Assembly (NCBI GenBank): GCA_037576195.1
Contig: CM075101.1
Location: 30,194,001-30,258,000 of the forward strand
DNA: 64,000 nucleotides
From: Phytoseiulus persimilis
Taxonomy: Eukaryota > Arthropoda > Arachnida > Mesostigmata > Phytoseiidae
Direction: 5' to 3'
Within the stretch, counting starts at the first letter, position 1. Each line of letters opens with the position of its first letter. The notes beneath the pieces were generated by a model. It made no database searches, was not told the origin of the DNA, and worked only from the letters and a program-made list of their open reading frames with translations. The translations under genes and the position numbers were made by a program. Of the stretch, positions 33,233 through 63,005 are shown piece by piece.

Positions 33233-35668
33233 AGCTCTGGAACAGCTCTCGTAAAGGCCGCTCAATGCGGACCCCAGAATGAGAGCTCTGGTCCAGCTAT
33301 CCAGTTTGACAACCTCCTTCTGTATGCTCGAATCAACCGAAGCCGAGAGAACTCCTCTTCAATCTTTGCGCCTGTCCGCTGGGGGATCATCGAAATCTGG
33401 CATTTTCTTCTTCACGGCACTCGCTTGCACCGAAGAGGTCGCGAACGAGCAGTTGCAAGAGATCACTCGAGGTGTCAACACCCCGCTCTCATGACAAGAT
33501 GCATGAGAGCCATGATTCTCGCTGCCTCTAATCTCATCACGGTCAAGGACGTCGAATCCAAAAACGAATTCCCTCCGCTGTGATTGCTACATGCTGACAA
33601 CAGATAGGCGCGCCGCGGGCGCTGACCTCGCCAACGAAAAAAATAAACGCGTATTTCCCGCTGACGGTGTATTGGACCTCACCTCCGGTGACTCCGGACC
33701 CAGACCGGAGTTCACTTGCTCAAGCGACGCCGGAACTTTCCGAAGACACTTCAGGAACACTTTTTGTGCCATTGATGTGTGCGGCTCACTGCAGCCCGTC
33801 TTTTCCGTGGTACTCTCGACTATTCTCCACCCTGACGAGCAAATTCTTGGCGAGAACTTTTGAAGCATCCTCTGCTTTTGAGACTGGGCGGGCTCCCGTG
33901 ATCAACTGCTCTATGAATGCGTTCAACTCACTTTCTGATGTCGACATGAGGAGACAAAGTTTTCGGCTCTGGTCCAGGGGATGCGTCTTCCGAGTTTGCC
34001 TCTTGCGAAGCCTTTTTATAACTCCGGCACGGAGCCCTCGGAGAGCGTTACCCTCCCTCCCTCCCTCCCGGCATACGTATCATCTGATCTGCTCTGATCT
34101 GCTCATGGATCAGCCTTTCAGTTCTTTGTCTGTCTGATTCTCGGTATTGGAAAGTTGGGAACGTGGGCAATTCGCTGTCAATCTGACGAGCAAGTACTGA
34201 ATGCATTGGCTCGAGATTCAGTTGATCACTATTCTCTTGGTCGAAGTTCAGCATTGGACCACGTGTCGAGCCCTGAGACATTCGGAGCTCCATCACTTGT
34301 GGAAAGTGCCGTTCAGAGGCGAATAGGTTCCGCAAAAAGGCCGATTTGGAGTGCAAACTCGTTGAAACAAAATTGCATCACGACCACCATAGACCTGATT
34401 TGATAGGCTTCGGCTCGTGGCGGAAATCCGTGCATCGTGAGCGTCCGTCCGGGTCTTCAGCATGTCTCGTTGGTTCGGCTCGAGAATTCAGTAACATAGA
34501 TTGACATTTCCTCGTTCATGCCCGCATCGACAAGAGCTCATGGCGATTTCTCGGTCCCACAGGTTTTCCAGGAATGAGCGCGTACGATACGTTCGAGAAA
34601 AACCGGAATCTCCTCGATCGGGAATCGATCATGACTACTCCAGAAAGTGCCGGACCGGCGATTGCTGCACTATCTCTCGCTGAAGTCCAACATTGAGTCT
34701 TCAGATGCGCCGCAGGAACGGCTCTTCAGGGTTGAACGCTTGCATTTCTTGCATGGTTTCGATGAGTAGATATCAGTTCATCATCGAGCCTCGTTCGTGG
34801 TCTCGACTCATGTCGGACACAATATTTTCGTACAGATCATCAAACATTCACTCAGTAAGGTGGATTCGCTCGAAAGCCCCGTAGGAATTCCGCGAGCCGC
34901 TCGTGGAGTTTTCTAAACCTTTCGCATCATTTCATTGAAGAATCCAAAGGACTCCATGAGCCAGTCGAAATTGCTCAGAACTTCCATTGAGAATTCCGGT
35001 CTGCAAACTCGGCGCTTCTTTGGAAGCCGATTCTCAGCCACATCACCGAATCGAGACAGTCGTAGAACGGCCACTAGCTCGAGTTGATGTTCTAAGATCA
35101 GTGGTTCAGCTTGAAGGAAACGAATGGTCGGGCAGGTGCCAGCAAAAACGGGCAAATCCAAACCTTGTTGGTTGGGGAGATCCGGTTGAGAGGATCATTG
35201 AAGCTCGGTCTGAACCTGCCTTAGCAACTAGACGCTCATCTGATCTTGTGGTCACACGTCTAGCAACTCGTTCGGGCAACAGAGTCTCTGCGAGCTCGCA
35301 CTGGTGTCGGATCGGTGATTGAATAAAGCTGCTCAGCGCCCCTCTTCGCCGGCATGAAGGTGGAATCTTTCTGATTCGTGGGAGGTTCTTCGATGGAGTC
35401 CGGGATCGACTCGAGGGTCCATCCTTTGACCGTCTCATTTCTGATCGTATCCGTACTCGGGGATTTTGCGTTTTCAGAGGCTCATAGAAAACTTGCAGCT
35501 TGGAAGCCGGTGATTGTGAGTGGATATTATTTCTGTACGGGTTTGTTCCAAAACAACAAAAACGACGAAAACAGATGCTTCGCTGAACTCGACCGACGGG
35601 CTAGAATCGTCGTGATCCACTTCTCTCATCCACGCGCGCCCTGCGACTTTTCTCTCTAATGAATCGGT

Positions 35669-36619
35669 ATGCGCACATGGGATTCCGAAGCTGATGCCGG
35701 TAGCACTCGGAACGCTGGAGTTTGCGAAAACAGCAGTGAATCGGACGTTGAACTAGAGGCGACGAGTCTCAGCGTACACCGCAGCGAACTATCAGCCGCT
35801 CCGGATGATCTGCCAGCTGGCCCGGAATCGGCTACATCCTACGCCGGGTATGCTGTCTACGTGGTTTTTTTCGTAGCCTTACACTTCGCGTTGCGTAACA
35901 ACGATGCCGATCCTTCGCATGCTCTCCGAGACCAATGCATCACGGATCTCTGTTTCGCAAGAATTGAACACGATTGGCCCTGCGAGCATTGCCCTTATCA
36001 GAACTGCGAGCGAACCAACATAACCGCGAAAACACGATTCCTCTTCTCGGAAGTCAACCGAACCGCGTACGTCGATATACATGTTCCGAACATCATTGTC
36101 CACCCCAAGCTCATCAACGCCTCATTCCAAACAACGTTCCATTTCTTCGATGACGACCGCTGGACAGTGAACATCTTGATCTTGAGAAAGTCCGCAGGTG
36201 TTTCCGAAATGGTCTTCAACATCTTCCAAGCGGAATCGAGTCCGGATATAGTAACAGCCATCATGGACAATATCGATAAGCGTCCCTACTCACGGATAAA
36301 GTTGGGACTGGAAGAGTTCAATCTGACCGACATACCATTCGGTAATGAATTCGGGGGCGTCACTCTCGGAGTGAAGTTTCGACGTTTCGAAAACTACATG
36401 AGGCTCTATTTCTGCTCCTACAACATCTGCAAGCGTCACGGCGACAAGATGGGATTTTCGGCAAAAGCTAGCACTGACGAATATACCGTCGCGGTGATCT
36501 CGTTCGTCGATTCGCCCGATAAGTGCGCTTTCGAACTGTACGAGCCTCTCGAGGTGAGAGCCCAGTGTCGGATCGCCAAAACGTCTCAAGTTATCAACCA
36601 GTGGGTGACCATGGACTGA
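35669..36619 (+). CDS. Single-exon type II membrane glycoprotein, family unknown
   Basis: A 316-codon ATG-to-stop frame with no internal splice sites needed. Residues 1-56 are acidic and Ser-rich (cytosolic). Residues about 57-75 form one hydrophobic span (SYAGYAVYVVFFVALHFAL). The remaining 240 residues form an ectodomain with several cysteines (a C-x2-C-x4-C cluster near the membrane and a C-x4-C pair later) and possible N-glycosylation sites of the N-x-S/T type (NIT, NRT, NAS, NLT). No N-terminal signal peptide is present, so the span should act as a signal anchor with the C-terminus outside. AATAAA lies 162 bp after the stop. The next gene begins about 570 bp downstream on the same strand. 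I do not recognise a family; a lineage-specific surface protein is likely. Confidence 0.75.
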   Translation: MRTWDSEADAGSTRNAGVCENSSESDVELEATSLSVHRSELSAAPDDLPAGPESATSYAGYAVYVVFFVALHFALRNNDADPSHALRDQCITDLCFARIEHDWPCEHCPYQNCERTNITAKTRFLFSEVNRTAYVDIHVPNIIVHPKLINASFQTTFHFFDDDRWTVNILILRKSAGVSEMVFNIFQAESSPDIVTAIMDNIDKRPYSRIKLGLEEFNLTDIPFGNEFGGVTLGVKFRRFENYMRLYFCSYNICKRHGDKMGFSAKASTDEYTVAVISFVDSPDKCAFELYEPLEVRAQCRIAKTSQVINQWVTMD

Positions 36620-43802: not shown

Positions 43803-46800
43803 TTATCTCTTCTGTGGTATGTGTTCTTTCACTGAAACCACTTTGGACCTCGGCTTCTTGTTCTTATACCAGAAGTATTCGAAGACTAGGGTAATGCAGG
43901 CCATCACGACTCCAATGAAAATGACGATGAAAACACCACCTGATACGAAAGAATGCAAATGGTTACTGAACTGGTTCTACGAGCTCCTTCGTCGCTCCTT
44001 TAAAAGTCTGGGTTAGGCAGCTCTTCGGAAAAATGACTGAAATTCGAGGACGACTCCTCATAGTTATGGGATCATTCTCACCGATGTTTTTGATGGATAT
44101 GCCGTCGTTGTTCTTGCCTTCTTCATCACACTCCTTCTTTTCAGGGTTCTGGTTCCACCAGGTTTCTTTCAAGCTCTCGAGTCTCCTCTGATTGAGCAGC
44201 TTCAGGATACTGCAAACGAGCGGACAAGTGTTCCAAGCCATGGTTGTCGCTATCATCGTGAAAATCTCCACTTTGGCACAGGATGAACTTACGCGCTCGA
44301 AAGTTGGTCTCGGAGGGGAGAGTTTTGCTGGACGGCCAGCGCCAACGGTTTCCGTGAAAATTCGGAGCCAATTTGAGTGAGATCACAGTTGGTCATCGTA
44401 GCGTACTTGATCTGAGTCGCGTCAGCTTCAGAGAGAAATTACTGTTATCGCCCTACTTGCCTCGCACGTGGGAGCTCTATGCCGTCTGATTGTATCAATA
44501 GGAGTCAGTCAAAGTGGATCCTTTCTTCAGCCAATCGTTCCTTGATGCCGACGGGCGGGGCAACACTCATTTTGTTTGATTCGAAAAACGCAGTTACCGA
44601 TAAAAGCGAATCCTTCACTCGACTGGCTCTCTTTGACGCGCTTCACGCCGTCTTCGAACGAAGTCGGAAGATTCGCCTCTTGCATGGTCCACCAGATCTT
44701 CGTGAACTTATCGCTGACCGGGTAATCCCAAACGGCGAGTTCTGCCCTCTGATCGTCTGTCAGGCTGTCATCGAGAGACATGTTCTTCCAGATCCTGAAA
44801 GAGACGAAAATAGTCGACGTTGCTCGCTGGATCCTAGACTTCACAAAGTGTTTGTTCCGATGTCTACGATATTTCCGAGCTGGAAACGGCATTGACAACT
44901 CGAACTCACTCATAGAACTTCTCCTCGATGTTGGCCATCCTCTTGAAATAAGTGGATGCTGTGGTCTCGCTCTGCGGAGCGTATTTAACTTTGTACTGCT
45001 TTGACAAGTCATCCAGGGACTCGATCGGAGACTCCAGACGGGACACGGTCAAGAACGCGGCCAAGTTGGCCGTGTATGAAGCGATGATGATGAAGCCGAA
45101 CAGCCACCAAGTCGCGGCCACCAATCGACCCGACAGGTTTCGCGGCGCTTCGCCCCCTCCTTGTGGTGTCAGCGATGTCATGCAGAACCAGAGACACTCT
45201 TTCAGCGTGAACTCACGCTTCTCGTCGTCATCCTTGTACTTCTCTTTGTTGTTCCTGTGAGTTTTGAATCATGCTCCGGTAAAGAGCTAGCGTATCAGCT
45301 GAATCTCTCTCTTGCGGACAAAAACTTCACATGTGTACCACAGCGAAGATCCCGGATCGCGGAGATGATGTCTCACCTGTAACTGTACGGCGACAACCTA
45401 TCGAATATGAACATCAGGAACGATGTGAAGAAGTAGGCCGCTAGAATGCAGCCCCACACATTGGTTTCGAGTACTGTCAAGAACTTGAACAGTGATGGTT
45501 TCACTTCGGGTTTCTTCATGAGGATCGAGAGGCCGACGAGATCGTAGTACGGAACCGTGAAGTCGACGACGGTCTCTCTCTCAGCCATGACCGCTATCGG
45601 ACCGAGGGCGATGTCTGCTTTCTGCGATCAAAGAGTCGCTGATTGAATATGACACAGCACTGAACATGGTTGGGTGAAGACTCTGTCTGACTCCTTGTTT
45701 CCAAATCATTGACTCCGGCATTGACATTTGACGATTGTCTGAGAAGGAGCCTTTGCTTCGAGGCTTCCACGGCTGGAAACGGTCGGACGATGGGCGTTGC
45801 TCTCACCTTTTGAACCAAGTCACCGATCAGACCACTCCAGACACCGTCCTTGCTCTTCGATCCAAAATGACCGTCCTGTACCTCGTAGATTTCGTATTCG
45901 AACTTGAGGATCTTCTTTATTTCGTTTATGAGATCAATGCAGTACCCGCGGAATTTCGTCGTCTCATTGTTCCGGTACACGAAGGGGGGTTGCTGCGGGA
46001 AATCAACGGTCGCACTTGATACACATTGATATTTCGATAGTAAGTGGAGATTTAAGGATGACCGAACGACCAGATTCTTTTTCGCTTAATTTGATCCACT
46101 TACGATAATGGTCACAACTTTGTAGAAGGTCACAGCGCCGAATTCTTCCAGGGAATTCTGAGACTCTTTCGTCCAGATAGCAGATTTGCCGTCACCTTGG
46201 TACGTGAAGTAACCTTTTTCGTGGGTGTCGCGACTCTTACCCGATGTGAAATTCAGATGAGCGATTTTCATTTTGATTTGCTGATAGCCAACTTTTGAGT
46301 CGAATATGATATCCCCGTATGTTCCTTTGAGTTTCTCAGAGTTCAAGGCCGCCAGTAAGTTGTTGTTCGGCCTGCCCGCGTTGGATCCTGGACAAGCAGC
46401 CTGGATCGGGTCCTTCGAGTATTTCGCTGTGGCGAAGATCCTTATGATCGTGTAGTATGAGATTTCCTCGTAGAACAGGCCGTCGAGCTGGAGATTCACG
46501 AGGAGATTCGATAGAGTTAGAGACATCGGAGACTTGGCTTCAATGAAACAAACGAGGCTTTCCGTGTTCCACCGACCTTATCGGCTCCGTAAACTCCGTC
46601 CTTCCCAACCCGATTTCCGTCTTCAGCGACGGGATGTACGAAGAGAGCTTCGAGGTTGACACAGCCGTCGCACACTGGTTCACCTTCTTGCTTGGTCACG
46701 AGCACCCAGCAATGATGTCGTTGCCTAAGATCATACTTCTTCGCAACTTCGAGCGCATTGCTGAGATGACTGATGCTGCCCACCACGAAATAGTTGGATA

Positions 46801-49800
46801 CATCCGTGGATTGAATGACTTGAGTCTTGTTCCAGAAATCAGTTGCGCTCTCTCCGACCTCGCGCATGATGTGACGGGTGGGAACGTTCTCCAAGAGGCG
46901 AGCGTACTTATGGTCAATCACTGCGAAGCAATAAGAGAAGAAAAACTCATTCAATGTCAGGTCGGAGGCTTCTCCAGTGCAACGATAGCTCGAGATCCTC
47001 GGGTGGCCTTGGATTTGGAGATCCATTTAACGTAGCTGTCGCTTGCATTGTTCGGAAGACTCACAGACGGTTTTATCATAGAGAATCCCGGCCGTAGCAA
47101 GATCCATCCTGACGCTGAGTTCACGCACTGCTTGGGTATACGAATCGCCGGGAGGAGTCACGTGTATCAGGTAGTTCAACTGATCTCCTTTTTTTGAGCT
47201 CCAACCGCTCATAGAATATTCGTCACTGACTCCTGAAACAAGAACAGGATCACCAACGATCGATCTATAATCAACGGATTGTATCTCGCTCTATCGCGAC
47301 GATTCTCCATTTTCTGACGTCTTCCCTGAAATGCTCCAAACGACCAGTGTGCATATAGAGTCGGAAGGGCCTCGTGAATCTGTCTGAGGTGAACGGTTAG
47401 CTGGAGGGTACGCTCAAATTAATGGACTGTCACAGAGCGACGTTGGTGAACGACTCATCATGGGAGCAAATAAAAAGAGACCAAAAGACAAACGGTGAAG
47501 TCGAATAGAACCCACGAAGAGCCGAGCGGAGCTCCTATCTCCGTGATGAATCGCCGTTCGAATCGATCGGTGACTTCAAGTCGGGCTTTGATGCGGCTCG
47601 TCTCGTAACAGTGGAAGTCATTGTTGTCGCGCACGGATTTATTCCTCGATTTTCGCCGCTCCAAAACATGGTCCACTCACCGTACGAAAGGTCGAGGGTG
47701 GGCATGGCCAGGTTCTTTAAAACCTCTTTGATATTCATGGTCAGTTTGTTATAGTTGCTACCAGGCGTCCGGACCGTGTTTATCACGAGGTTTGGTTTCA
47801 GCTCGGTGATCATAGTGCACACTGAGGAACAGACGAGTAATATTCACCTTCTCAATCGTTTTAAAATTATCGGGGAACAACGTCATGCGAAATATGCTTA
47901 TGAGGGCGCTCTCTAGATCGATTATGTTCAGGAACTCATTTTGAGGACTCAGTCCCGCGGTTTCGATTCACGGACGAATGGCTCGGGTCGAGAATCAGAG
48001 ACAACGTCAAGCGGCCCGCATCGGCTAACGCCGTTTATGTGAAGCGAGACAACAAACGTTTTTTCTGATCCAGTTCGTGTTTCGTAAGCTCGATGAAGTT
48101 CCAGTTGAAGTTTTTGCCGTTCGTTTTCGCCTTTTTCAGCCCTCTATCGATCGCTTCCTTGGCTATAGGGAAAGCCTTTTCCGTGATCACGGCTGAAATG
48201 AGATGAATTCGTACTGTCACGAAAGTTTCATGTGATGAGAATGGGAAATGGGTATATGTCGGTTAGTTCTCCCAGCTTAGTCAGGAATGCTCATTTATGG
48301 AATCTGTAAAAGCTCCTGTAACTTGTGGCTCATCCCAACTGCAAAAATGAAGAGATCACAATGACAAGTCATAGAGCTGCCAAGCTTCAGTACACATGAC
48401 ACGTGAATAGTTGCGAGTCAAGGCCAAATCAGAATCACGCTCCAAACGGCGTCGCTTCCGCCCTGCGTCGTCCCGTGTCCAGGGCTCTCTTCGAGCTTGG
48501 GACCGCGTGCAGGTCGGGTAAGAGCTCCGAGTCAAAACAGAGCTCGATGGATCATCCGACTGTTACTTGGCATGATTCACAGGGAAGAAGGTGCTGTGTG
48601 AGAATATTTTGTCTCCCTTCGAGAGAACCGTTGCCCCGGCACGATAGAATCGACTCGGAATTTCGAATCAGATGCGTCGACACTTCTGCGGCACGCTCTC
48701 GATGTCGTATCAATGTCCCACCGAGCTGAGCTCACGACGGGATAGGTAACACAAAATTATTGCCGAGCAGAACAGTGCTCCTGAGAGTTCTACCTCGCTC
48801 GGAAAGTGCGCGTACGGAGCAGTTTTGAGTCACAGCATGTCAACTATGACAGGACCATGAGCAGTGAAAATGATATTCAAGCAGCGAAGAGACGCGGTTC
48901 CAACGAAAGCGCCTGCTCGAGAGAGATTTCGTGACAACAGCCTCTCTCGATGCGGACGACTGCGCTTCGATCGTGTGGTTCGCGTGGATCGCTTTGTACC
49001 CCCGGAAAAGAACATGGTCTAGCACACGTTCCGATGTCCTCGCAGTCATTTTCATGTAGCCGTCCCCGCAGCAGCTGAGGTAGCCGAGCTCACTCTGCCA
49101 CAACTCGGTCGTCAATCGACTCGAGGCAAGCGTGCGCCCAGCACGGCCAACAGGTCGTTCGCTCTGTTTGGCCGTCCGCCATTGAAGTCGACAATCTTTT
49201 GTTGAGCCACGCTCAGGATACCGTCAATATGTTGAAGCGCGACTTCTGCCAAGACACAATACAGCCGGCAGAGACAGAACATTGATCTGTTTCAGTATCG
49301 ACGCACACATGGCTCGCCGCTGGTTTCCCAAATGACAGAACGAAGCTCCATATAGAAGAGCTTAATCAGGTATCGATTGCACCTTCAAAGTTACTTACTG
49401 ACTTGAAATTCTCCAGCAATTAGCTCGACCCCAGCTGACGCTAAGAGAAGTAGACATACTCTGAAATCGCAACAAAATATGAGTCGAATACGAAGGTCTT
49501 GAAAGCCCCGTTCATGATCTGCGAAGGGAAGAGGATGCCTCCCGCATCTGAGGACAAAGTCTCCTCGAGACAGACGAACAGAAGCCAGAGAGGAAGAATA
49601 GCGTCTCGAAGAGTACGAGGGTGTCTCTTGGGAGAATCGAGGTTAGCGGGAATAACCTCGGTGACCGAGGCTCAGCCCATCAACTCTTGAGCTGATAGAA
49701 CGATCCGACCAACGATTGCAGAGCTATCCCCTTCTCACGATCAATGCTCATCTGTATTGTGGGAGGAGTGAGGGATTCGAACGCCATCGTGTGTCGGACA

Positions 49801-50042
49801 CTCGATTCCCATCCTAACGTGGTGGTTCCTGAGGGAGTTCTACGAAATATCGCGGTTGGAATCAGGTCTTGCCGGACATCTCAGCTAAACCGCAGTTCTG
49901 GATCGAATTCCCGAATTTTTCGAAGTACGCTTCTTCCATGTCCGCTCAGTTTCTCTCACTGAACCCGGGAGCACCCTCTTTCTGACGGTTGATCCATTTT
50001 TCAAAATTTGTCAAGTCGCACTCACCGGAAACGAGTCTCCAT
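43803..50042 (-). CDS. Ir25a: Ionotropic receptor co-receptor IR25a
   Basis: Fourteen minus-strand exons: 50026-50042, 49399-49460, 48058-48192, 47681-47821, 47065-47232, 46577-46920, 46104-46532, 45807-45992, 45377-45621, 44910-45254, 44598-44794, 44293-44425, 44082-44209 and 43803-43939. All phases agree; 2667 nt, 888 residues, the usual IR25a size. Exon 1 supplies METRFR and exon 2 completes the signal peptide. An amino-terminal domain spans about residues 25-430, retained in IR25a and lost in most IRs. Ligand-binding lobe S1 starts near 433; TM1 is about 549-568. The pore has TPQGGG at 605-610, then WWLFGFIIIASYTANLAAF at 625-643. Lobe S2 follows and TM4 is about 846-866. Near-identity to insect IR25a in the pore and the AVWDYPVSDK region makes this the clearest call here. 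IR25a is the broad co-receptor of chemo-, thermo- and hygrosensory IR channels. The intron 3 donor is weak (GTTTGT). Confidence 0.95.
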
Positions 50043-51443
50043 GACGAAACGTCAAGGTGTCTGTTGAAGGAGACCTGGTACTTAGAAGCTGGACGCGAAG
50101 ACCTTGGCGAAGACCACATCTCAGTTTGCTATTGGTTGGTGAGTCTCTCCACTCACGGACCGCCCCCGCCAATGAGGAGCTTCACGAGGAATCGATGCGC
50201 AAACTACTATGCCCAAACAGTTGGAAAGGAGCACAAAGCAACTTGACCTCAGTCTGACTCTCTGTTGCTCGGAAGAAATTGGAACAAATTGAACATTTTT
50301 GAGAAAACCCTGATTCGGAATCGATACATCGCACTCTCCACGAGTTTCTGACTCGCTGCTCAGTCTCATCGGGAATATCACTCAAATAATTTGGACGCCC
50401 CCGGCTCAAAGCCAGGGGTTTGACGGAGTGTATCCCCGCAGGCAACTCGAAACTCTGACCCAATTTCGAACTTCCATCAATAATTGGTCGACGTGCCTCG
50501 ATCATCAAGACGGACTCAATCCCAGGATTCCCATCTAAATTGTCTCAGCGAATGGTTCCGCTTGGCGCACTTCGGCAAGGGTCAAGGTAGCGACGCCCAA
50601 GAGTCCGTGTCGTTCTACTCGCCGGCAGCGGTCGAGATTTCCAGACGGTGGCGTTACCGAGGGGGAGGGGCAGAACTTCTGAGCTCATACTATCTCACTC
50701 GAGCTCTCGGAACGAATTTTGTATCCCTAGCCTCGAAACCGAGCAGCGCATGATACGATATGGTAAAGGCGACCAATAAAGACCATCGATCCTAAATTGA
50801 ATGAGGAACGGGAACCTCAACGCCTCGCTTCTGAGGTTTCGAGTCGAACTGCAGCTTTGTTGTTGTTGTTGACAAGGTCTCTGTTCTGACTGGACTCCAT
50901 GGATGGATAGAGTCCATACATTCACCATGAACGGTTAGAGAGAAGATGAAGGAGAGGTTCCTTCAGGTTGTTACAGAATGCGTGAAAGCGAGGCGGCCGG
51001 AAAAGAGCTCAATCCCCGCCCCCCCCCCCCCCCCCCCCCCCCCCCCACCCAGGAAAGTTCTGGCTGTGCCACTCTTTCCAGATCATTTGGTCAGGCCCGT
51101 TCCATCTGAGCTTTGTAAAGTAGCCGTCCCCAATCGGTTCCGCCAAAGTCGTCGTAGCTGTACGCCGAACATAATCAAGGCTAATTCAAGACTTTCGTTC
51201 GTGTTTTATCGGTTGACGGGATGCTGTTTGTTAGGAATATCAGTTCGGTGTCATTAGCATATTTCGCGATTGGGGAGAGCTCGCAATGAAAGTGAAACGC
51301 TCCCCATCGGCGCCACGAGGACACGAATGAGAGAAAAGCCCTCAAGTATATCTCCAACTACCCGAGAGCTCTCGATGACATGCTCCAATATCGCTTATGA
51401 ATCGGGGAAGGGGAATCAAGGCAGAGCGTATTAGGTCACCAGT
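50043..51443. other. Region between Ir25a and the first Ir93a-like gene
   Basis: About 1.4 kb with no supported gene. It should contain the Ir25a promoter and 5' UTR. A 28-bp poly-C run lies inside it. Confidence 0.5.
51019..51046 (+). repeat. Poly-C run of 28 bp
   Basis: Uninterrupted C homopolymer, about 1 kb upstream of the Ir25a start. Such runs are prone to length error in assembly. Confidence 0.9.
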
Positions 51444-51449
51444 TTTATT
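51444..51449 (-). promoter_or_regulatory. Polyadenylation signal of the first Ir93a-like gene
   Basis: Minus-strand AATAAA, 135 bp past the stop codon at 51584-51586. Confidence 0.65.
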
Positions 51450-51583
51450 CTTAAGATCACAGCGTCAGTGTGAGAAACAACAACGTCGAATTCTCCACAG
51501 CGAACTGCCTGAGGAGAAAATGCGTGGATCGATAGGTCGGGAAACCTTCGAAAAATAGAACAGAGCCTGTATCACATGAACAT

Positions 51584-54500
51584 CTAATAACGTCTCGCTG
51601 GATAGTTGTATGGAATGAGATCGGTTCGGTTCGGGAAGCCCGAGTATCTGAAGGGCTGATTTGATGATTCGAACGCATATCCAGTGTTCTTCGTCCCCGA
51701 CTGTCCGTAGTCTGTACTGTAATGACTGTTGTCCGAGAAGCCCGTTTTCCGGAATAGGTTCTCCTTGTTGAATTCCGAAGGACTAACTCGTTGAGTTTTT
51801 CCTAGAAAGACACGCGACACGAACAGGGTGAGCTTCGTTAAATGAACAGAGCTGAATAGGCCTACTCATTATAATTGAAACCGGGAAACAAATAGCCTCA
51901 CCTGACGTGGGATCCCGCAGCTCCCGTCGGCGGCGCAACAGCTCGATGCCGAGGAGGAAGAACGATATGAGGAAACCAACCCCCAAAACCCAGAAAGATC
52001 CTTCCATGTGGGCCATTTGAATTTCGCGGATGTCGCCCGCCTGTGGTTTTGATTCCACAGTGCATTGGTTTTCCTTGGGCCAGAACTTTTTCTTCCATCG
52101 AATCACGAGTCCCGTTTCCACCATACGGAGCAATCTGAACGATTGAAAATCGGCGATCTTAGATTTTTTTCTTGGTGAAGGTTCATCATTCGGAGGCTGT
52201 CATGAAAGCGGACCGAATACTCACATCGTATTGAATCTCGTCAGGAACGGGAAGCCTGGTCGCACGGCGAGGTTCTTGACCTCCCGAATGATCTCCTCTT
52301 TTGCGACCGCATATTGACAAACTCTTGTCTTGAGATACTGCTTGCCAATGAAGTGGAACAAGGTGACTTCGGAGCCTATGAGCGCCATCTTACCATCTGC
52401 GACATTCTTAAGAGCCCAACTTTCATGAGCCGTTTCGATTGGAATCAGTTTTTGTGATAGCTGTGTCAAGGGTCCTTGTCTCTGAAGCTAAAATGGAGAA
52501 TCGGGCTTGAGCGTTGAAGAATGACAGAGAAGACAAAATCAGTTCCCTGAAATTCACTGGAAAATATATCCATGCAGACGAATCTCTGGACGCCAGAGTT
52601 ATAATCACCCGAAGGATTTCGATGACGGCTTGGCCTCTGAAAGCCCCCCATTGCATGCCGGAATTCAGGAGTGAATCGACGGTATCGAAAGGATTCCGAA
52701 TTTTCGGGAATGTCAAGTCCGCGACAAGGTTGCCCGAATAAGTAGTCAGAGTTACGATGACGAAGAGCCACCAGAAGCCGACAAGGATCCGACCAGAAAT
52801 CGCGTCAGGGAGGTGGATTCCACCTGTTCCAAATGGTAGAAAGAAAGAGAGAGGGAAACCTTTAGACTTCAAGCGGTCGACGGATAGGATCCAGAGAATG
52901 CGAAGTGCTCCGCAGGATACGGAATCGGTTCATGACTTGCCTTGTTGTATGATCGCTCCAAAGCAGTACCATTCACAGTTTGACAGCTTGAAAAGACCCT
53001 TGCCATCTCGTAGGTCGTAGTAATCGTAATATTTCGAATTGATGTGAACGCACCAAAGTACTGGACCAATTACGAGCACAGTCGCGAGCACCGCCAGCCA
53101 TGTCTGAAAGACACTTCAAGCTGTAGACGTTGAAGCAGAGAAGTTCGGCGCAGGCTCAAAAACATTCGCAAATTTCCATTTCTCGTTCGCTCCGAGGTAT
53201 TTATCGCCGATGCCGCGGTGTCGTCCATCAGACTCACATCCCACGTGAAGGGATCCAGGAAAAGGTATTTATAGTTCGGTTGCGGCTTCGGAACCAAAAA
53301 TTTGTAGGGCGACTCGTCGAAAGCTACTGTGAAATTAACGGCCTCTTGTCTGTCAGGCGTGGGCGTGAAATCGTAGAGAGCTAGATCGATATCTTGTTTC
53401 ACGAGCAAGCCGATGAGTCCCGACCAGCTGCCGTTGGACTGCTTCAAGCCCGGTACCCGTTCCGTCGGCATGATGAACTTGTAACTGGAAAAGTCAGAAA
53501 TTAGAATACGAGAAGTTTCGATTTTCCACTCAACAGTGAGCCGAGAATTTCCGATCGCAGTCATAACTAACGTGAAGTTAAGCTGGCGGGAGAGTTCTTT
53601 CAGCAGGTCGACGAGTGTGCCGTTCACGCTAACGACCTGGCCTTCTTTTGCTATGACCTCGGTCATCGGGGGTTCCTGGGGAAGATCCGGATGGAGATGA
53701 GTTTCGTCATTCTGCTATGTTCGAGGACAGAACTGAAAACGGCCGTCAGAAAATCACTCACGTTGATGACTCCGACACGTAGCGTGATTCCCCCCATATC
53801 TCCGAGAAATCTGGGAAACAGTTGATACGAATTGCGATTCACCCCGGTGGCCATCTTGAGCCCGTCGAAGTAGTCCCAGGTTGCGACAGGATCGAATGTT
53901 TTACGTCCCGCCTTGACGGTGAGCGTTCGTATCGTGTATTTCGCGCAGAAGCCGCAAGATTTCGACTGACGCAGGTACTCCTGACCGGAACAAGGGGTTC
54001 TTTGAGCATCCCGCGTTATGGGGCATCAGAAGCAATAGGGAAAACCATCCGTTGTTCGAAATGAAACAGATCTGGATCACACAGCACCTAGCTCTGGAGC
54101 GTGCCCACTCACCCGAACTCCTTTGTTGATGTTATACTTGTGCAACAACTTGTCAGTACCCGGGTTAAACAGCGATGGATTCTTCTTCGCGGTCTCCATG
54201 TAGGCGTTCATCGGCAGGTCGATATGGCAAGTACCCGTTACCTTGATGGAAGACGAAATCGTTTCTGAGAGACGTCATTTTCCGGGATGCGTATGAAGAT
54301 TCATCCTCGGGGAGCGTTTCGTGATTCCCAGGAACATTACTCACAGGGCAGTCTTCGTCTCTGACCTCGGTCGCAGCGATAGCAATGTTGGCATCGCTCG
54401 TTATTTTGTCGAATAGGAAGTCTCGAACCTTATCGCTAAACGGCGTTGTGAGGATGACGAAGAATTCACGGAATACAGTGAACATTTGATAGTCGACTCC

Positions 54501-55879
54501 CCTCTCAAGGAATTCGAGGACCAGCTCTTCGTCCCCAATGACAATGAATTCTCGGTCGTCTTTTTTCTTGGGACTGGTTCGGTACGAATCTAGGATGCCG
54601 CGCATCGAAGCCGAGTTCGACCCACACTGACCATCCTGACGCACCGTCGGCGAGCAGTACTGCCAAAGCGATATTGAAGCGGCGCTGTTAACGCGATCGT
54701 TGTTACGAACGCCTTCGACAGCGCGCATCACCATTTCGAGGTACTCGTTGGCTGAAAGAAAACATTTCAGGTTCTAGCCTCCATACAAAATGTTCTGGAG
54801 CGTGATCGAGGCAGGGTTCGCCGTCTCCTCCTGAAGCTTGCGAGCCGAGCGCAACTGCGTATCGGCGTTCACGAGATTCCTCCAATCAACTCGAATCATT
54901 TCTGAGTGTTGTTCGATCCAGCTTTCGAGTGCATCTTCGGTGGGCGTCCAGCGGACGACCACAGATTGAACATATCGACCGCGACCGAGAGTTGTTCTCG
55001 ACGAAACGGCTATGACAGCCGTCGAGTTGCAGAGCCGCAAGAGGTCTATCTCAAACGAGCGAACGATGGCTGATGCATTGTGAGTCCGGTACAAAGTGCT
55101 GTTATTCTTAGCCCCAAGAGCAACTCACTGTAAGCTTGAGGTGTAATGATTGTTATCTCACTCCAGCGACTCAAGGGAAGCATGGCCCGAAAATCAGCAA
55201 GCACAGGCAGAACGTCTGTCGGTCCTTCAGTTACCGGAATGCTGACAGCAAACGGTTTCCTACTGTTGCTCATTTCTCTCCCGTCTGCGTCGAACCTACG
55301 CGAGGAAGAACTGTCAGTGAACCGCTGGGGACTGAATTTACACGAACCAGGCGATGACGAACGATCTCGACTTGGGATTGAGTCGGGGCTCCGAGCACCG
55401 ATCGTAGCGCTTCTTACCGCGGACAATAAGGTCTGTTCAAAGCGAGAAGCATGGCGGTCGGGTACTTCGTTTCTTGCAGTGCCATCGCGGTATACGTGTC
55501 TTCACATCCTACCGCTGTCACCAAGAGATTCAGGTTTATCTGAGTCGGTTTCTCCGGGTTCACTCTTTCAGGGAGTTCGCTCACATCGGCTATGTCGGTA
55601 GCCACGAATGTGAGGTAATTCCCTCCAGGAGCCAGGGTCTCGTTATATTCCGCATGACGAGACAGGATATATTCACGAACTTGTTGTCCATCCACGTCGG
55701 TCTGATCGTCAGGCAGAATTTCTAGGGATGGGCACCGGTAATTTCATCAGTGTGAATTCGAAGGAAATACACGGAGAACTCTTCCTCGACTTCGATCAAA
55801 GGTACTCACGAACTTTGATTTGATGTGCCTGAGCCACACACCCTCCAAGCGAAGCAGCGAGGAGCACTCGGAACCACAT
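51584..55879 (-). CDS. Ir93a: IR93a-like ionotropic receptor, copy 1
   Basis: Fourteen minus-strand exons: 55810-55879, 55418-55718, 55129-55295, 54787-55069, 54345-54684, 54113-54241, 53762-53980, 53572-53675, 53238-53484, 52941-53103, 52609-52823, 52225-52487, 51902-52134 and 51584-51801. They total 2952 nt, 983 residues. Exon 1 is a signal peptide ([18 protein letters not shown]). A full amino-terminal domain follows, then S1 from about residue 503 (LRVGVINEPP), TM1 about 622-637, pore IIQQGG with [10 protein letters not shown] at 671-687, TM3 691-708 with TTYSGNLV, S2, and TM4 about 881-898. The LP-x-A-x-SGRI block, FPK after TM3, and EGSF before TM4 point to IR93a rather than IR8a or a tuning IR. 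IR93a works with IR25a in insect humidity and temperature receptors. Intron 10 has a GC donor (AAG|GCAAGT). The 54787/54684 junction is the least certain. Confidence 0.85.
52824..52940 (-). other. GC-AG intron in IR93a-like copy 1
   Basis: Donor CAACAAG|GCAAGT and acceptor TTGGAACAG. The phase (1) and protein (QQ-G-GIHLP) match the equivalent GT-AG intron of copy 2, whose donor is CAACAAG|GTCAGT. Confidence 0.8.
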
Positions 55880-58234
55880 CGTGATCTCGTGATCGCGGCC
55901 CCTGTTCAGCGTTCAACCGATACAAGACACAAGAGCGGCCTTCAGAGCTCGTCCTGCATCGGGACTCCTCCGGAGCTCGTGTTTAAGGGGCCGCCCACTC
56001 ACGTAGGGAAGGGCCAACGTCATCAAATAGAAGTTTGCGTTAAAACGAGATCAATTACAACCGGCGATTATTCTGACGGAGGCAGAGACGGACGGATGGA
56101 TGAGGAGTATCGAGCGGCGTGGAATAATGGAGACTGGCAGAATACAACTTCGAGCGACCGTTACGACCTGTGATTGGAATAATGAATGATGGCAGTAGTC
56201 TGACAAAGAGGCATGAAGTCTTTTGTATTTCCTCCAACAAACCCAACGCTCGCTGATCGATTGAGTTGTTACGAGCTTAAGCCACACCAGGCTGGAGCGA
56301 TTTCGCCTGATGCCAAACTCTGGACCGCCACAACTAATCCTCAGACGAAGTGGAACACTTTGACGAAACGATGTTTTCGGAAGCTTCCATCGTTTTCGAA
56401 CCCTTGTTGCTCGTAACGGCCTCGACTTCAATTTTACGCTCCAGTACTGCGATCTCAGAGGAGATGGATCGAAGACGAATCAATGCCACTAGGTCGGAGT
56501 GAGCAGCTCATAATGGAGCAGGACTCATTATGTCTCTTGGTTAGCATTCTGGCCCCCTCGACGACAACACAAGGTCGCAGAGCCCAAACCACACATTGAT
56601 CCCTTGAATCGAGCTCACCTTTTCGGATCTTGAACTCAGTTTAGAGTGAACTATGGGACTCCAGAAAAATCTGAATCAACTTCGCGGCACAGATTCTGAA
56701 ATATAACCGCGACGAAGTATTCAACACCGAATCTTGAGCCTCATGATGAGACAAGATGATTGAACATCTGAGATCTATCCTGAAGTCGTGAAATACACTA
56801 ACCGCCAGTTCGTTGAACAACGGAATCAGTATAAGGTGAAAATGTCGAGGAAATGTGAGGTGGTCAGAAGCAGGTACCGAAGTCCACTAGCGGAGGGCTG
56901 TCTCGCCTCCAAGCATAGCTGGCGCATCGAGTTTCACATCGATCCTTGAACGAATAATTCATGTAGATGGAGCCGCCAGTTTGACAAATGGTGGAAATCG
57001 ATTTCCATCGGTTCAGGCTGTTATCCCCTGAGCCCAGATTTTATTCCCTCGCGGGATGAAGTCGACCGTTGAATGAAACCCTTAACGTCCCTGAGAAGCC
57101 GAATCAGATCTATTCCTCTATGTTACCAGTTACTGTCTCCAAAATGAGTCGAAAGAAATGGACAAAGAGGGTCAATGCTGATCTCGTGATGCGACAATTA
57201 ACCACTGTTCTCCTCCAAATCTTCTGCAGGCTGAATTCGTTGCTCTGTTCTACCCGTTCCGAGTCTCACGCAGCGAAGACAAACGGAAAGCTCAGGACTG
57301 TCAAGAAGATCTCGTCGCAGAACCTGACCTCTGAACAGAAAATCTAATCAAACTCATTCAAGACTGACCTCGGTTCTTTGCTACCTCGATGCGTGGATCC
57401 AACGGCGGTTCTGCTGTAGTGGAGCGAGGCGTGAGCTTGTATCGACGACGGGCGAAGCCTCGGAAGCCTTCATCGAAGTAATATCGACCGCTCGGAAACC
57501 TACTGTATTGTTCCTTGAATGCAGAGCAGAATAATGTCGGAACGTCATGCTATTCGAATTGTGGCCTGTCTGCTACAAGCTACCGAGGCGATCTACTTCG
57601 TACGTCCCCCAGCTGCCCACATCACAGTTCTATCGCATGCGTGCATGCAAGAGGCTAACTCGTCAGGAACAGTCAACTTGAAATTTATAACCATCATGGA
57701 ACGATCAGGAATGTCATTAAAAGAGCTAGGCAGTTCAGACATTCATCATTTCACACCTCCCATCCATCCATATGAGGAGATGGGTAGATGAGTCTCTGAT
57801 GGCTGAGTTTATCCGTTTTCGTGGCAATCACGTAGAATTCATCAATCTATCCATGCATAGGATCCATGGATTGATGGGTTATGATCAATGAATAAAGCCT
57901 GAACTCTGCAGCGCTAGTCATCATGATGAGTGGAAACTCACTGAATCGTCTCCGTTGCAACGAAATACTTTGAGCACCTATTCAGGTCATTAACCACGCG
58001 ATCCAAATGAAGTCTATTGAAAATCCGTACGGGTACTGCATGTAAGCGGTTCTCGAAGAAATCAATTTCGGCTCGCAATGACCGCATCCTCTTGAGATGG
58101 ACCTCTCCACGAAGAGGCTCTGACGAAACCGATATGATAGGCAATACATCTGTGTCGGACTCCTATTCAACACCATATGTGGAAATCCTTCTGCTGAGAG
58201 ACGACCGATGCTACGCCTTTCGCTCGATAGAAAC
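55880..58234. other. Region between the two Ir93a-like genes
   Basis: About 2.35 kb; short open frames only, for example a Lys/Ser-rich plus-strand frame at about 57120-57347. It should hold the promoter of copy 1 and the 3' UTR of copy 2. I saw no minus-strand AATAAA close to the copy 2 stop. Confidence 0.5.
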
Positions 58235-61200
58235 TCAGTATCGCCGGGTTGGAAAGCCGTATTGAGTCATGTCGCTCTTGTTCGGGAAACCGGGAAACCG
58301 GAAAGGCGTCGACTGTTGTTCGTACGAATATTCGTTCTGTGCTCCCGATCTGAGGCCGAACTCCGATCCGAACTGAGATTCGAACATCGATTTGTCCCCG
58401 TACTGAGTGTCGTAGATTGTTCCTGTCACACCATCAGATATATCAGCGGTCGCCGACAACTCTGCAAAGCCAATGTCCATTGTAAGATCCAGTATATCGA
58501 GTTGAACGACCTCAGCGTTTGGCACAACGCCGTTACAACCATGGAAGCTCTCACCTCTGGGTGCGTTCATGTAACGTCGTTTCCTGAGATACTCTATGAA
58601 GAGGCAGAGGAACGCTGCCGCCCAACCTATGCCTAATACCCATAGGGCTCCTTCTATCTGGGGTATTTCGACGACACGTTTGTCTCCGCCGTAAACCTTG
58701 GGCTCAACCGTGCATTCGCTGTCTCTGGCCCAGTGCTTCTGAACCCATCCAGCGTACAATCCCCGCTGAACAACTCGTCCGATTCTGTGAGAATGAGCAG
58801 GACAGGGTTGAGTGACCATGGGAAGATGATACGCAGCACCTCTATCCACTAGCGTAGCCAGCATGAGGCTTCACAAGCTAAAGCCTCTCGATCTTGAAAT
58901 TCCATGAGGCTAGCCTCATGAGATTTCGAAATTCCGATTCTGTTTGACTTCTGTTGGAAATAGACACCTACCTCTCATTGAAACGATGCATGTAGGGGAA
59001 ACCCTTACGGACAGCAATATGCGACGTGTATTCATACAGAGGCTCCTTGGATACGTGGAAATCGCAGCGTTTGTGGACTTGGAGTGAGCGGAGCGTGTAG
59101 TATCGAAGATGTATCTCGTTGTCCACCAAGGCCCGTCTCCCCCAACGCACTCTTTTGAGAACTTCCTGCTCGTTACGTTTGTCGAATTCACGGAACCGTC
59201 GGTACATTTCCCACTTCTGCAGGCCAGTCTCTTCCTGAATCGAAAGTGGAACAGTCTCGCTCTTGAAAGGATCCTGCGCGGGTCGGAGATCGCGACTTTT
59301 CGCTTATCAAACGTTCTATCGCACTCCAGGGAACACAGCACTCACTCCAAGGACTTGTTTGAAGGCGGTTCCTCTCCATGCTCCCCAGTCCATAGTGCGC
59401 CTGTAGGATACCAGCTGCGAGATGTATGACAACGTGTACCTGGTCCTTGGGAAGGTGAACTCCGCCACCATCTGGCCTGAGTACGAGGTCATTGAGATGA
59501 CAACGAAAAGCCACCAGTAGCTGACCAACATCCGTCCTGAAGAAGCTTCGGGAAGGTGAACTCCCCCTGGAAATGATCGGAGTTGCCACGGATCACTGTT
59601 GTTGATGTGGAGCCTCACTTCTCGATTGAGTAAAACTCGCGAGGACATTGAATGAAGAAGGGTCGAATAAAGCAGCATCTGACTGACCTTGTTGAATGTA
59701 GGCGCACCAAATGTACCAATAGCAGTTGAACATCTCGTTCAGGCCACCGTCTCGTTTCATCTCATTGTATTCGTAGAATTTACTCGTTTTGTGTAAGCAC
59801 CAGAGGAGGGCCGGTATGAGGATCAGAGTAGCGAACGTACAAACCCATGTCTGGAAAATTTTCATGTCTTCAACCGATACCTTCAGGAATATTCCCCGTT
59901 CTAGCAGCTTCGAAACCACTCACATCCCAGGCGAACGGGAGGAAAAATAGGTATCGGTAGTCAATGTGGGGCCAGATGACCATGTAGCGAACGTAAGTCC
60001 CTTCGATGCCAGCAGTAAAGTCCACGATCTCGGACCGCTGCTTCGTAACCAGGAAAGGATACAGCGCAATATCCACTTCGTTCCTTGCAATCTGTCCCAT
60101 AAGCCCTCGAGTAAAGTTACCGTGGTGGTCATGCATCCCCGGTTCGGGCTCTTTAGGGACCACCCATTGAATGCTGTGAACATATGGAGCATTTGCGCGA
60201 ATTCAGTATTTTTTGCTCTGATTCACAATCTGCACGCGATCCGAGATGAGAATGGCGGGAATCGCTCACGTGAAGTTCATGTGCCAGGCGAAAACTTGTA
60301 TCATGTCTCCAAACGTCCCATTCACGCTGCGTATCTTATCGGTGTCCCGGCCCTCCTTATCTTTTTCGTACTCAATCATGGTAACCGGAGGGTACTACGA
60401 GGGAAACAGCATCGTCAGAGAATGAAATCATTGGAGGAATCCCGGAACGCCTCCTCAGTGAACACTCTCGTCGGCACCGTGCGAGAGATACTCACATGGA
60501 AAAGCCCAACTCTGAGAACAGTGTTTTTGCCAAAGCCATCTTTGAACTCAGGAAGAAGATCTTGGTAGAATTCGCTCTTGTCTTTTGGGATATCCTTGAG
60601 GTATTTCACCCCGTTCGCCAGGCTCCAATCTGCTACATGGTCGAGTGAAGCTCTCGACTTGTCCATCTTGAAACGCCACATTTCGTATACACTGCACAGT
60701 CCGCAAGTTGATGCTCGGCTCAAAATTTCCTGCGTGGCCAACGCAGACATATTAGCTCTGGTCATTCTGAGTTCGTCCGAAACGCTACCGAGGTAACGTC
60801 CCTCGTGAATCGGTCGTTCAAAGTGGGGAGAGACGGATTCCGCGGGAAGAAAGATTGCATGGGGGTTTCGCGGGGGTGTTTCACGCGGAACAACGTACCG
60901 CCATCTCCTTCCGGATCCCAAGATGCTGACTGTTATCTCCGAGTTTACCCTTGAAAGTGATCCCGTCGAGTCCACGTCTGACCGCCAGAGCTCTGTACGC
61001 CTTCAGACCTTCTTCGACGTGACAGTGGCCAACAACCTGTACAGGAGGAGTAAGAGAGCGTCGAAGCTACGCTTGGTGTCGTTTGCTGCTAACATTTCTA
61101 TTCATTCGCTGATGACGCCGTGCGGCAAGATCACTCAAGCCTTGGAAAATCGAATCACTCTGCCTCGAATTCGTTCGTGAGCACTTGCCGGACAGAGCTT

Positions 61201-63005
61201 CTGAGGTTGGTTTTTGCTTGCGAGAAGAAGCATCTTGCCCTCAGGTTTCATGTGCGAGAGAAGTTTGTCTCGAAACGCTCGGTCGACGGGATCTTTGATG
61301 ACGACTACGAACTCTCGCCAGTGCTGCATGATATTGATGCTATAATCAGCTCCCAGTCGGAACAGTTCGCTGACGTATTCCTGACTCCCGATAATGACGA
61401 AACTGGTGGCTTTGAGATCGTCCTTGTACATATTCAAAAGAGTCGTCGTATTATAGATGTAGGAGTTGTTCCCACGGATGACGTGCATCCTCTCCGTCTG
61501 CGAATTTTCGGGCTTAGATAATGTATGAGGATAAATTCTGTGGCTTGCACAAGAGGCAGCACTGGCACAACGAGAAGGGCTAGACAAAAATCCGATCCTA
61601 GATCGCCATGGTCAAAGGACCATTCGATCAGTCGAACAAATTTCTTCGGTGGGGGCTCTCAAGTCCGCAGGAGCATATAACTCACTTTCTCGAACGACTC
61701 GGTTCTCTTGTCCTGACATACCCTCAGGGGTGTCACCATGTTCAAAATGGGCAGAGTTGTTTGGGAGAACTTCTTCGCGACTTGAAGGTTCGTGACCCAG
61801 CCGATGCGACTAATCGATTTTAGGATATCCGACGCAAAGTTTTCCTCCCAATCTGAAATGGTGAGTCATCCCTGAGTCATATCATCAGCCGCCGCGTTCT
61901 CATCTGAACGTTGGTCTCTGGTCGAAGAAATCTTACGCTGTTCCATTCTCTGCGGCAAACCTCTTACCGTTAGGTTCTTCGATGATCACGACTGTCTCCC
62001 TCCACCGAGTGAAGGCGATCGTGTTCGCGAGGTCGGCGAGCAGAGGAGCAACGTCGCCCGCAACATTTGTAACACGGAAGTTTATCCCGAATTTCGTTGC
62101 TAGGGCATCGATGTGGAAGCGTCGACAATAAGCCGGAACGAAGGTTATCAAGTACGTTCTGCTCTCAATCGCGGCGATCTGATGACTTTTGTCGCAATGG
62201 GTGGCCGTGATCAGCGCATCGAACGTGCCTGCTCTATAAACTTTCACTGTGGACAGAGGAAGAAGTGTTTGAAATTCTCTAAGCCTCGGAAGAAGACAGG
62301 GAACGGAAGATAGAAAATAGGTTTGTGCGCGGGAGAAGTTATTCCTATGGGCTCGCGGAACTCACTCGCTTCGTTCAAGGATTTGATGAAAGTGGTTTTG
62401 ACGCGAATCTTTGCTTCCATGAAATGTTCCAGAATTCCTCGCACTTCGGCTTCCGAAGTTAGAGCAGCGTCTTCGACGAAGATTGCTTCCGGAGATGAAT
62501 ATTTGTTAGTGATTATTCGAGGGGCAAGGTCAAAACGACCGATGACCATGAATAATTCGATGAGCCGAGGAAGGTTCGGGACGCTCATGGAATGCTCATG
62601 ATGCACTGATATTATTCGCGAGAACTAATGGCGGCCGACCTCAAGCTCGTGTGCTGCGCGAATCAATATAAACGTAGTTATTCTTCTTTGCACGTGAGCT
62701 GCGATGTGCTCAGAAGATTGTGGGATGATTTCTCATTTACCAGCGTTAATCTCGAACGAAACCGAAGGCTTTGGACTCGCTGTCGTCGTAACGGCGGCAG
62801 GAGTTTTCACTGTGGCTGATGTCGTGGCACTCGTCGCCGTCGTCGGACTCGGGTTAGGGGGTTCCGATTGAGTTATGGTCACCGCAGAGGGTTCCGAGGA
62901 TTCGGGAGCCTTGCTACTGGTCAGGTCAGCGATACACATACGGTAGAAAGAGAAACTCAAGACGAAAATTAACAAGAAATGCCGAGGCCTCACCTCGGAC
63001 GCCAT
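58235..63005 (-). CDS. IR93a-like ionotropic receptor, copy 2 (divergent)
   Basis: Fourteen minus-strand exons: 62741-63005, 62366-62605, 61968-62246, 61722-61852, 61189-61512, 60949-61036, 60496-60755, 60270-60394, 59924-60173, 59688-59850, 59346-59566, 58972-59273, 58555-58784 and 58235-58461. They total 3105 nt, 1034 residues. The 5' boundaries of exons 5 and 7 are uncertain. The N-terminus has a signal peptide, then a Thr/Ser/Pro-rich spacer to about residue 85 not seen in copy 1. Amino-terminal domain, S1 (LRVGLFHYPP), TM1, pore (IQQGGVHLPEASSGRM), TM3, S2 and TM4 follow in register with copy 1. The tail ends GFPNKSDMTQYGFPTRRY, against [18 protein letters not shown] in copy 1. The TM3 motif is SYSGQMVAEF instead of SYTANLAAF. 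Most intron positions equal those of copy 1, so the two arose by tandem duplication. Intron 5 has a probable GC donor (CCG|GCAAGT). Confidence 0.85.
58903..58920. repeat. Perfect 18-bp palindrome
   Basis: CATGAGGCTAGCCTCATG reads the same on both strands. It lies in intron 12 of IR93a-like copy 2 and is flanked by imperfectly matching GAAATTC segments. Confidence 0.9.
62756..62929 (-). other. Thr/Ser/Pro-rich spacer in IR93a-like copy 2
   Basis: Encodes residues about 26-83, after the signal peptide and before the amino-terminal domain. It is mostly Thr, Ser, Pro and Ala (for example PTTATSATTSATVKTPAAV), like a mucin-type O-glycosylated stalk. Confidence 0.7.

Follow-up and report, generated by a model that had tools for sequence, protein, structure and literature searches.

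Why do the genes for two co-receptors of the ionotropic receptor (IR) family, IR25a and IR93a, lie side by side in a mite, together with a third gene that resembles the second of them? An IR co-receptor is required by several stimulus-specific IRs in sensory cilia, and in Drosophila Ir25a and Ir93a are on different chromosomes and there is one IR93a. The locus considered here belongs to a 64,000-nucleotide stretch of Phytoseiulus persimilis (GenBank assembly GCA_037576195.1, contig CM075101.1, positions 30,194,001 to 30,258,000 of the forward strand), hereafter the window, in which all coordinates are counted from the first base. An IR25a gene, an IR93a gene and an IR93a-like gene are arranged there head to tail on the minus strand from 43803 to 63005, and in the splice models all their frames are without internal stop. 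We favour, with moderate confidence, the explanation that the IR25a-IR93a neighbourhood was inherited and that a tandem duplicate of IR93a became a further subunit beside it. The three genes are as follows.

43803..48192, minus strand: gene 1, predicted IR25a orthologue; 12 exons in the model, 846 amino acids (aa), 5' exon missing from the model
51584..55879, minus strand: gene 2, predicted IR93a orthologue; 13 exons, 930 aa, N-terminus MWFRVLL, C-terminus NYPARRY
58235..63005, minus strand: gene 3, predicted IR93a-like tandem paralogue; 13 exons, 1072 aa, a Ser/Thr/Pro-rich stretch after a hydrophobic N-terminus

These models were built with a splice-aware model and several junctions were corrected by hand. 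A first-pass annotation of the window had described three minus-strand genes head to tail within 19.2 kb, which is borne out by the stop-free splice models and by their coordinates, as 43803 is the end of the gene 1 stop codon and 63005 is the ATG of gene 3. Both Lig_chan and Lig_chan-Glu_bd were above the Pfam cut-off in all three genes. This was obtained with early models, which also served for the PDB and genome searches: that of gene 1 ends at residue 715, and that of gene 2 still contained an intron of 87 bases and was without the true N-terminus. In the partial 715-aa model of gene 1, the E-values were 5e-38 for Lig_chan and 3e-35 for Lig_chan-Glu_bd, and a two-lobed ligand-binding domain of the type of ionotropic glutamate receptors (iGluR) and IRs is present together with the channel.

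The identity of genes 1 and 2 was examined with 20 primers printed for Tropilaelaps mercedesae (PMC6520597), ten for TmIR25a and ten for TmIR93a, which were translated in six frames and placed ungapped on each gene, with 500 shuffles per pair. Fourteen of them entered summed scores, the other six being outer primers or mostly vector. On gene 1, four of the ten TmIR25a primers match at a level reached by 0/500 shuffles; IKNIGG, ACITLVF and ATMTNCD are exact, and the fourth peptide, KDHMPQKK, meets KEHIPQKR at the extreme C-terminus. Of the six without a match on gene 1, three are directed at the 5' end, where the present gene is incomplete or has diverged; two are outer primers and one is mostly vector. 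Likewise, three of the ten TmIR93a primers are exact on gene 2 at 0/500, namely PNRTDL, GQAVIEI and NYPARRY, the last being the extreme C-terminus; two others are weak (22/500 and 41/500) and five are not convincing. One outer IR93a primer, read backwards, reached 11/500 on gene 2, and the six primers outside the summed set gave no clear match. The start of TmIR93a, MWPRLIF, was missed by the score, while the start of gene 2, MWFRVLL, is alike by eye. In the sums, the seven IR25a primers scored 201 on gene 1 against a null maximum of 155 (200 shuffles), and the seven IR93a primers scored 183 on gene 2 (null maximum 154), 147 on gene 3 (151) and 136 on gene 1 (151). One off-target result was counted against the test, since IR93a_R2 reached 0/500 on gene 1 in another frame, which is one clear case in 42 primer-gene pairs. 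Because exact TmIR93a primer peptides occur in gene 2, it is taken as the IR93a orthologue, and by their sequences genes 1 and 2 are orthologous to Tropilaelaps IR25a and IR93a. Thus, the two names given in the first-pass annotation are supported by the published primer sequences.

The regions ahead of the ligand-binding domain were also compared. In gene 2 about 430 aa precede this domain and PF01094, the amino-terminal domain, is not detected at E 0.01, which fits the trait described for IR93a, a long N-terminus (about 400 aa) with no detectable amino-terminal domain (Croset et al. 2010). The gene 1 model, which is without the 5' exon and has about 385 aa before the ligand-binding domain, likewise gave no PF01094 at E 0.01. 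Two other markers were tried and set aside. The peptide of the fly IR93a antibody did not discriminate, as its best scores were reached in 238 of 500 shuffles for gene 1, in 67 for gene 2 and in 61 for gene 3. The search of PDB sequences matched about 360 iGluR sequences for each of two queries and yielded no solved reference for IR93a, as none was named IR among the 60 listed for each.

What, then, is gene 3? Genes 2 and 3 align over their full length with 291 of 907 residues identical (32%), and nine of 12 introns are common to them in place and phase. In a wider alignment of 15 rows eight introns remain common to the pair, while random placement gave at most four in 20000 draws. In a tree of 21 rows, all from this genome, the two genes are sisters with support 100/99; this tree has several long rows and leaves eight of 18 inner branches open. 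It used 16 of the 20 loci fetched: L023 was dropped because it had no match, and L019, L020 and L022 because theirs were short or partial. Moreover, the C-terminal tails of genes 2 and 3 are alike, one of them reading FRFPGFPNKSDMTQYGFPTRRY. The M3 gate motif of gene 3 reads SYSGQMVAEFTF against SYTANLAAFLTV in gene 1 and is also altered relative to gene 2, and in the N-terminal region gene 3 has a stretch of 59 residues, 58% of them Ser, Thr or Pro, without counterpart in the aligned gene 2. By hhalign, the N-terminal region of gene 1 showed no match to those of genes 2 and 3 (probability <1%). Furthermore, no DNA repeats of at least 30 bases are left within 43-64 kb, which argues that the duplication is old. 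We therefore regard gene 3 as a predicted old, full-length tandem paralogue of IR93a. As far as the primers and the own-genome tree reach, the two upstream genes were not found to fall outside the IR93a clade, a placement that the first-pass annotation had named as its refutation, given that gene 2 has exact TmIR93a peptides and that genes 2 and 3 are sisters in that tree. Its wording of two IR93a-type co-receptors stands in part: direct evidence of IR93a orthology exists for gene 2 only, whereas gene 3 is a diverged paralogue.

Gene 3 could also be a separate old IR of the antennal type, either of the IR21a, IR40a or IR68a kind or from a mite-specific clade, which came to lie in the same tandem array. 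The low identity of 32% would agree with this, as would the summed TmIR93a primers, which on gene 3 stayed below the null maximum. In addition, for all five TmIR93a primers with a match on gene 2 the fit is better there than on gene 3, and orthology of gene 3 to TmIR93a was not found. However, nine introns shared in place and phase would hardly be expected of a separate receptor, nor would the similar tails, to which two TmIR93a tail primers fit somewhat when gene 3 is taken alone (17/500 and 6/500 shuffles), nor the position as sister of gene 2. Moreover, orthologues of IR21a, IR40a and IR68a are reported as absent in the published account of Tropilaelaps. A separate origin is therefore considered quite unlikely.

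The other question about gene 3 is whether it still works. A functionless, decaying copy might be suspected from the altered gate motif (SYSGQMVAEFTF) and from stop-bearing gene 3-like exon fragments elsewhere in the genome, but its 13 exons and 1072 codons contain no stop, and despite very deep divergence it has retained the pore motif QQGG, the tail, several cysteines and the S1 arginine, so that decay is very improbable. The S1 arginine, the S2 threonine and the S2 acidic residue are presumably the glutamate-binding positions. The arginine is aligned in genes 1, 2 and 3; in the column of the iGluR S2 threonine none of the three genes has Thr; and the acidic residue lines up in gene 1 but is displaced by one column in genes 2 and 3.

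The rest of the genome (181 Mb in 127 contigs, the window being on a contig of 54.7 Mb) was searched for relatives with a procedure that scores the best candidates. The queries from genes 1, 2 and 3 gave 48, 31 and 27 matches, respectively, and among the candidates scored there was no further IR25a or IR93a-like gene in the genome, except for two short broken fragments. The best matches of gene 2 outside itself are gene 3 (E 5e-24) and gene 1 (E 2e-12), followed by iGluR-like genes. The fragments are gene 3-like single exons with stops (G000:C3:9916672-9916770, 73% over 33 aa, and G000:C4:4573051-4573131, 81% over 27 aa) and could be dispersed remnants of gene 3. Two further loci, L024 (C1:48.85 Mb) and L029 (C2:41.15 Mb), apparently contain two tandem receptor genes each; these are intron-poor or intronless and in this resemble the divergent IRs of insects. 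At E 0.001, Lig_chan was found at 33 places in the genome, counted per exon, so that there are fewer genes than 33 at such sensitivity; for Metaseiulus occidentalis, 65 IRs are listed.

Is the linkage of IR25a and IR93a ancestral or local? The first-pass annotation had left both possibilities standing. The introns of genes 1 and 2 say little about it. Three are common to the two genes (random placement gave at least three in 48 of 20000 draws), and iGluR-like genes have two of these as well. The remaining one, of phase 2 and before M4, is absent at the same column in the six of 12 other models that clearly cover the site, and in L036, one of those six, and in L028 a phase-2 intron lies six residues off, which could be the same intron displaced. 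As a sign of a common origin of IR25a and IR93a, these introns are a weak hint at best. According to the linkage-local explanation, a rearrangement in the mite lineage placed IR93a by IR25a, and the case of a second species, given below, would be independent or a numbering artefact. The separate chromosomes of the two genes in Drosophila agree with it.

The second species is the mantis shrimp Oratosquilla oratoria, for which OratIR25a is listed as Orat_gene16135 and OratIR93a as Orat_gene16136 (PMC11939437). The same source places its four co-receptors on chromosomes 9, 21 and 30 and reports a cluster, IR40a-2 to -6, numbered gene21360 to 21364, which suggests that the numbering follows position. 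Hence the two genes are very probably neighbours in the mantis shrimp too. Because they are numbered consecutively there, the linkage seems older than the arachnids.

Several points weigh against an ancestral neighbourhood. The adjacency in the mantis shrimp is read from gene numbers and not from a map, and OratIR93a has only 491 aa there. A draft assembly of the copepod Eurytemora has the two genes on different scaffolds (IR25a on 269, IR93a on 35), and none of the 16 tandem pairs listed for the mayfly Parafronurus is IR25a-IR93a; the copepod and the mayfly would suit a local origin of the linkage in the mite. Furthermore, the 9- to 12-mers common to the upstream regions of these genes were no more numerous than in Markov shuffles, in a weak test in which the start of gene 1 is not fixed, and the shared control of the cluster suggested by the first-pass annotation found no support in it (k = 9 to 12). 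On the other side, two independent moves that joined the same two ancient genes are improbable, and the Orat numbers track position, as the IR40a cluster indicates. A rearrangement restricted to the mite lineage is thus considered unlikely. We hold that the linkage is probably not local and goes back to an IR25a-IR93a neighbourhood of early arthropods, broken in flies and some other lineages, with the evidence from two species. The consecutive numbers 15229-15231 of the Tropilaelaps genes were not used as a sign of adjacency, since they exceed the 15,190 predicted genes and probably belong to hand-annotated models. No paper remarking on the adjacency of IR25a and IR93a was found among the open-licence papers listed in literature searches.

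Considering the above, we assume the following history. The adjacency of IR25a and IR93a would have been inherited from an early arthropod, as this genome and one crustacean suggest, and later lost in flies. IR93a would then have been duplicated in tandem in the mite lineage or earlier, and gene 3 would have retained the full receptor layout, most introns and the C-terminal tail while diverging to about 32% identity. Its product would most likely assemble with IR25a and/or IR93a in sensory neurons of the foreleg, where it would perhaps take the place of IR21a, IR40a and IR68a, the stimulus-specific partners. In the thermo- and hygrosensory neurons of Drosophila, it is established that IR25a and IR93a act jointly and that a third subunit provides the specificity for the stimulus. 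According to the published Tropilaelaps work, TmIR25a and TmIR93a are both foreleg-enriched, IR25a of this mite rescues the fly mutant, IR93a rescues it for temperature and, in part, for humidity, and IR21a, IR40a and IR68a are absent. A diverged IR93a copy located next to the two co-receptors would be well suited as an additional member of these complexes, and gene 3 is a candidate for the missing stimulus-specific subunit of temperature and humidity sensing in Mesostigmata. More tentatively, and with some doubt on our part, IR25a and IR93a might be a founding tandem pair of the arthropod IR family, in which IR93a arose beside IR25a before the split of chelicerates and mandibulates and the adjacency persisted at least in one mite and one crustacean, with the third member of the mite as a new subunit replacing IR21a, IR40a or IR68a. 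If they have been neighbours since early arthropods, their position would be a genomic clue to the origin of antennal IRs and would raise the question whether shared control keeps the adjacency.

The remaining features of the locus are the following.

48193..51583, no strand: gap separating genes 2 and 1; no support for another gene; presumably the site of the missing 5' exon(s) of gene 1
53485..53571, minus strand: intron of gene 2; 87 bases, in frame and stop-free; coincides in place and phase with an intron of gene 3
55880..58234, no strand: gap separating genes 3 and 2; no support for a gene

Retention of the gene 2 intron would add 29 residues to the ligand-binding domain, so that alternative splicing is possible there. 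Pfam showed no credible family for 16 open frames that lie in the gaps or border on them (nine of them for 48193..51583). A codon scan, with introns and other sequence as background, gave as the best stretches of the gaps 48960-49112 (score 9.6) and 51012-51158 (9.0) on the minus strand, which score like the weaker stretches of known exons (26.8 down to 3.4 for the 25 best listed). Small exons are therefore possible in the gaps, and one of these stretches may be the missing start of gene 1, for which the search of a start exon gave no clear winner. Small exons apart, the first-pass view that nothing else is supported between the genes holds. There are no N runs in the 64-kb window, and its G+C content is 51.4%, near the 52% listed for the phytoseiid Metaseiulus occidentalis and unlike the values for Tropilaelaps (44%) and Varroa (41%), which along with the peptide matches fits a mite of phytoseiid type. 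Ten flanking open frames gave nothing credible in Pfam, and a frame of 318 codons at 35663-36616 on the plus strand has clear coding codon use and no Pfam family, and could belong to a neighbouring gene as a large exon.

How does the cluster compare with known systems? It is unlike that of Drosophila in linkage and in the number of IR93a genes, as noted at the outset, and it is like it in having the same co-receptor families, which in the fly act jointly in cool and humidity sensing. The closest likeness is with T. mercedesae, whose IR25a (Tm15231, LC438511) and IR93a (Tm15229, LC438512) share peptides of their primers with genes 1 and 2; unlike here, no second IR93a is named in its published account, which names two Acari-specific foreleg IRs (Tm15230 and Tm15243), and the scaffold N50 of its assembly is 28.8 kb. 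In O. oratoria, IR25a and IR93a are numbered consecutively, but its table has a single IR93a. The trombidid mite Leptotrombidium deliense has, as in the present case, more than one gene of the IR21a/IR93a class, with three copies reported, but these are not assigned to IR93a alone and no linkage with IR25a is described for them. IR25a itself is reported in three copies in Tetranychus urticae and in five in each of the trombidids. Thus, a change in co-receptor copy number is not unique in mites, and the first-pass statement that these genes are normally single copy, which agrees with Croset et al. (2010), is to be qualified by the three IR21a/IR93a-class genes of Leptotrombidium. The families are known, and what may be new is the head-to-tail trio, the old paralogue of IR93a and the reading of IR25a and IR93a as a possible ancestral pair of arthropods.

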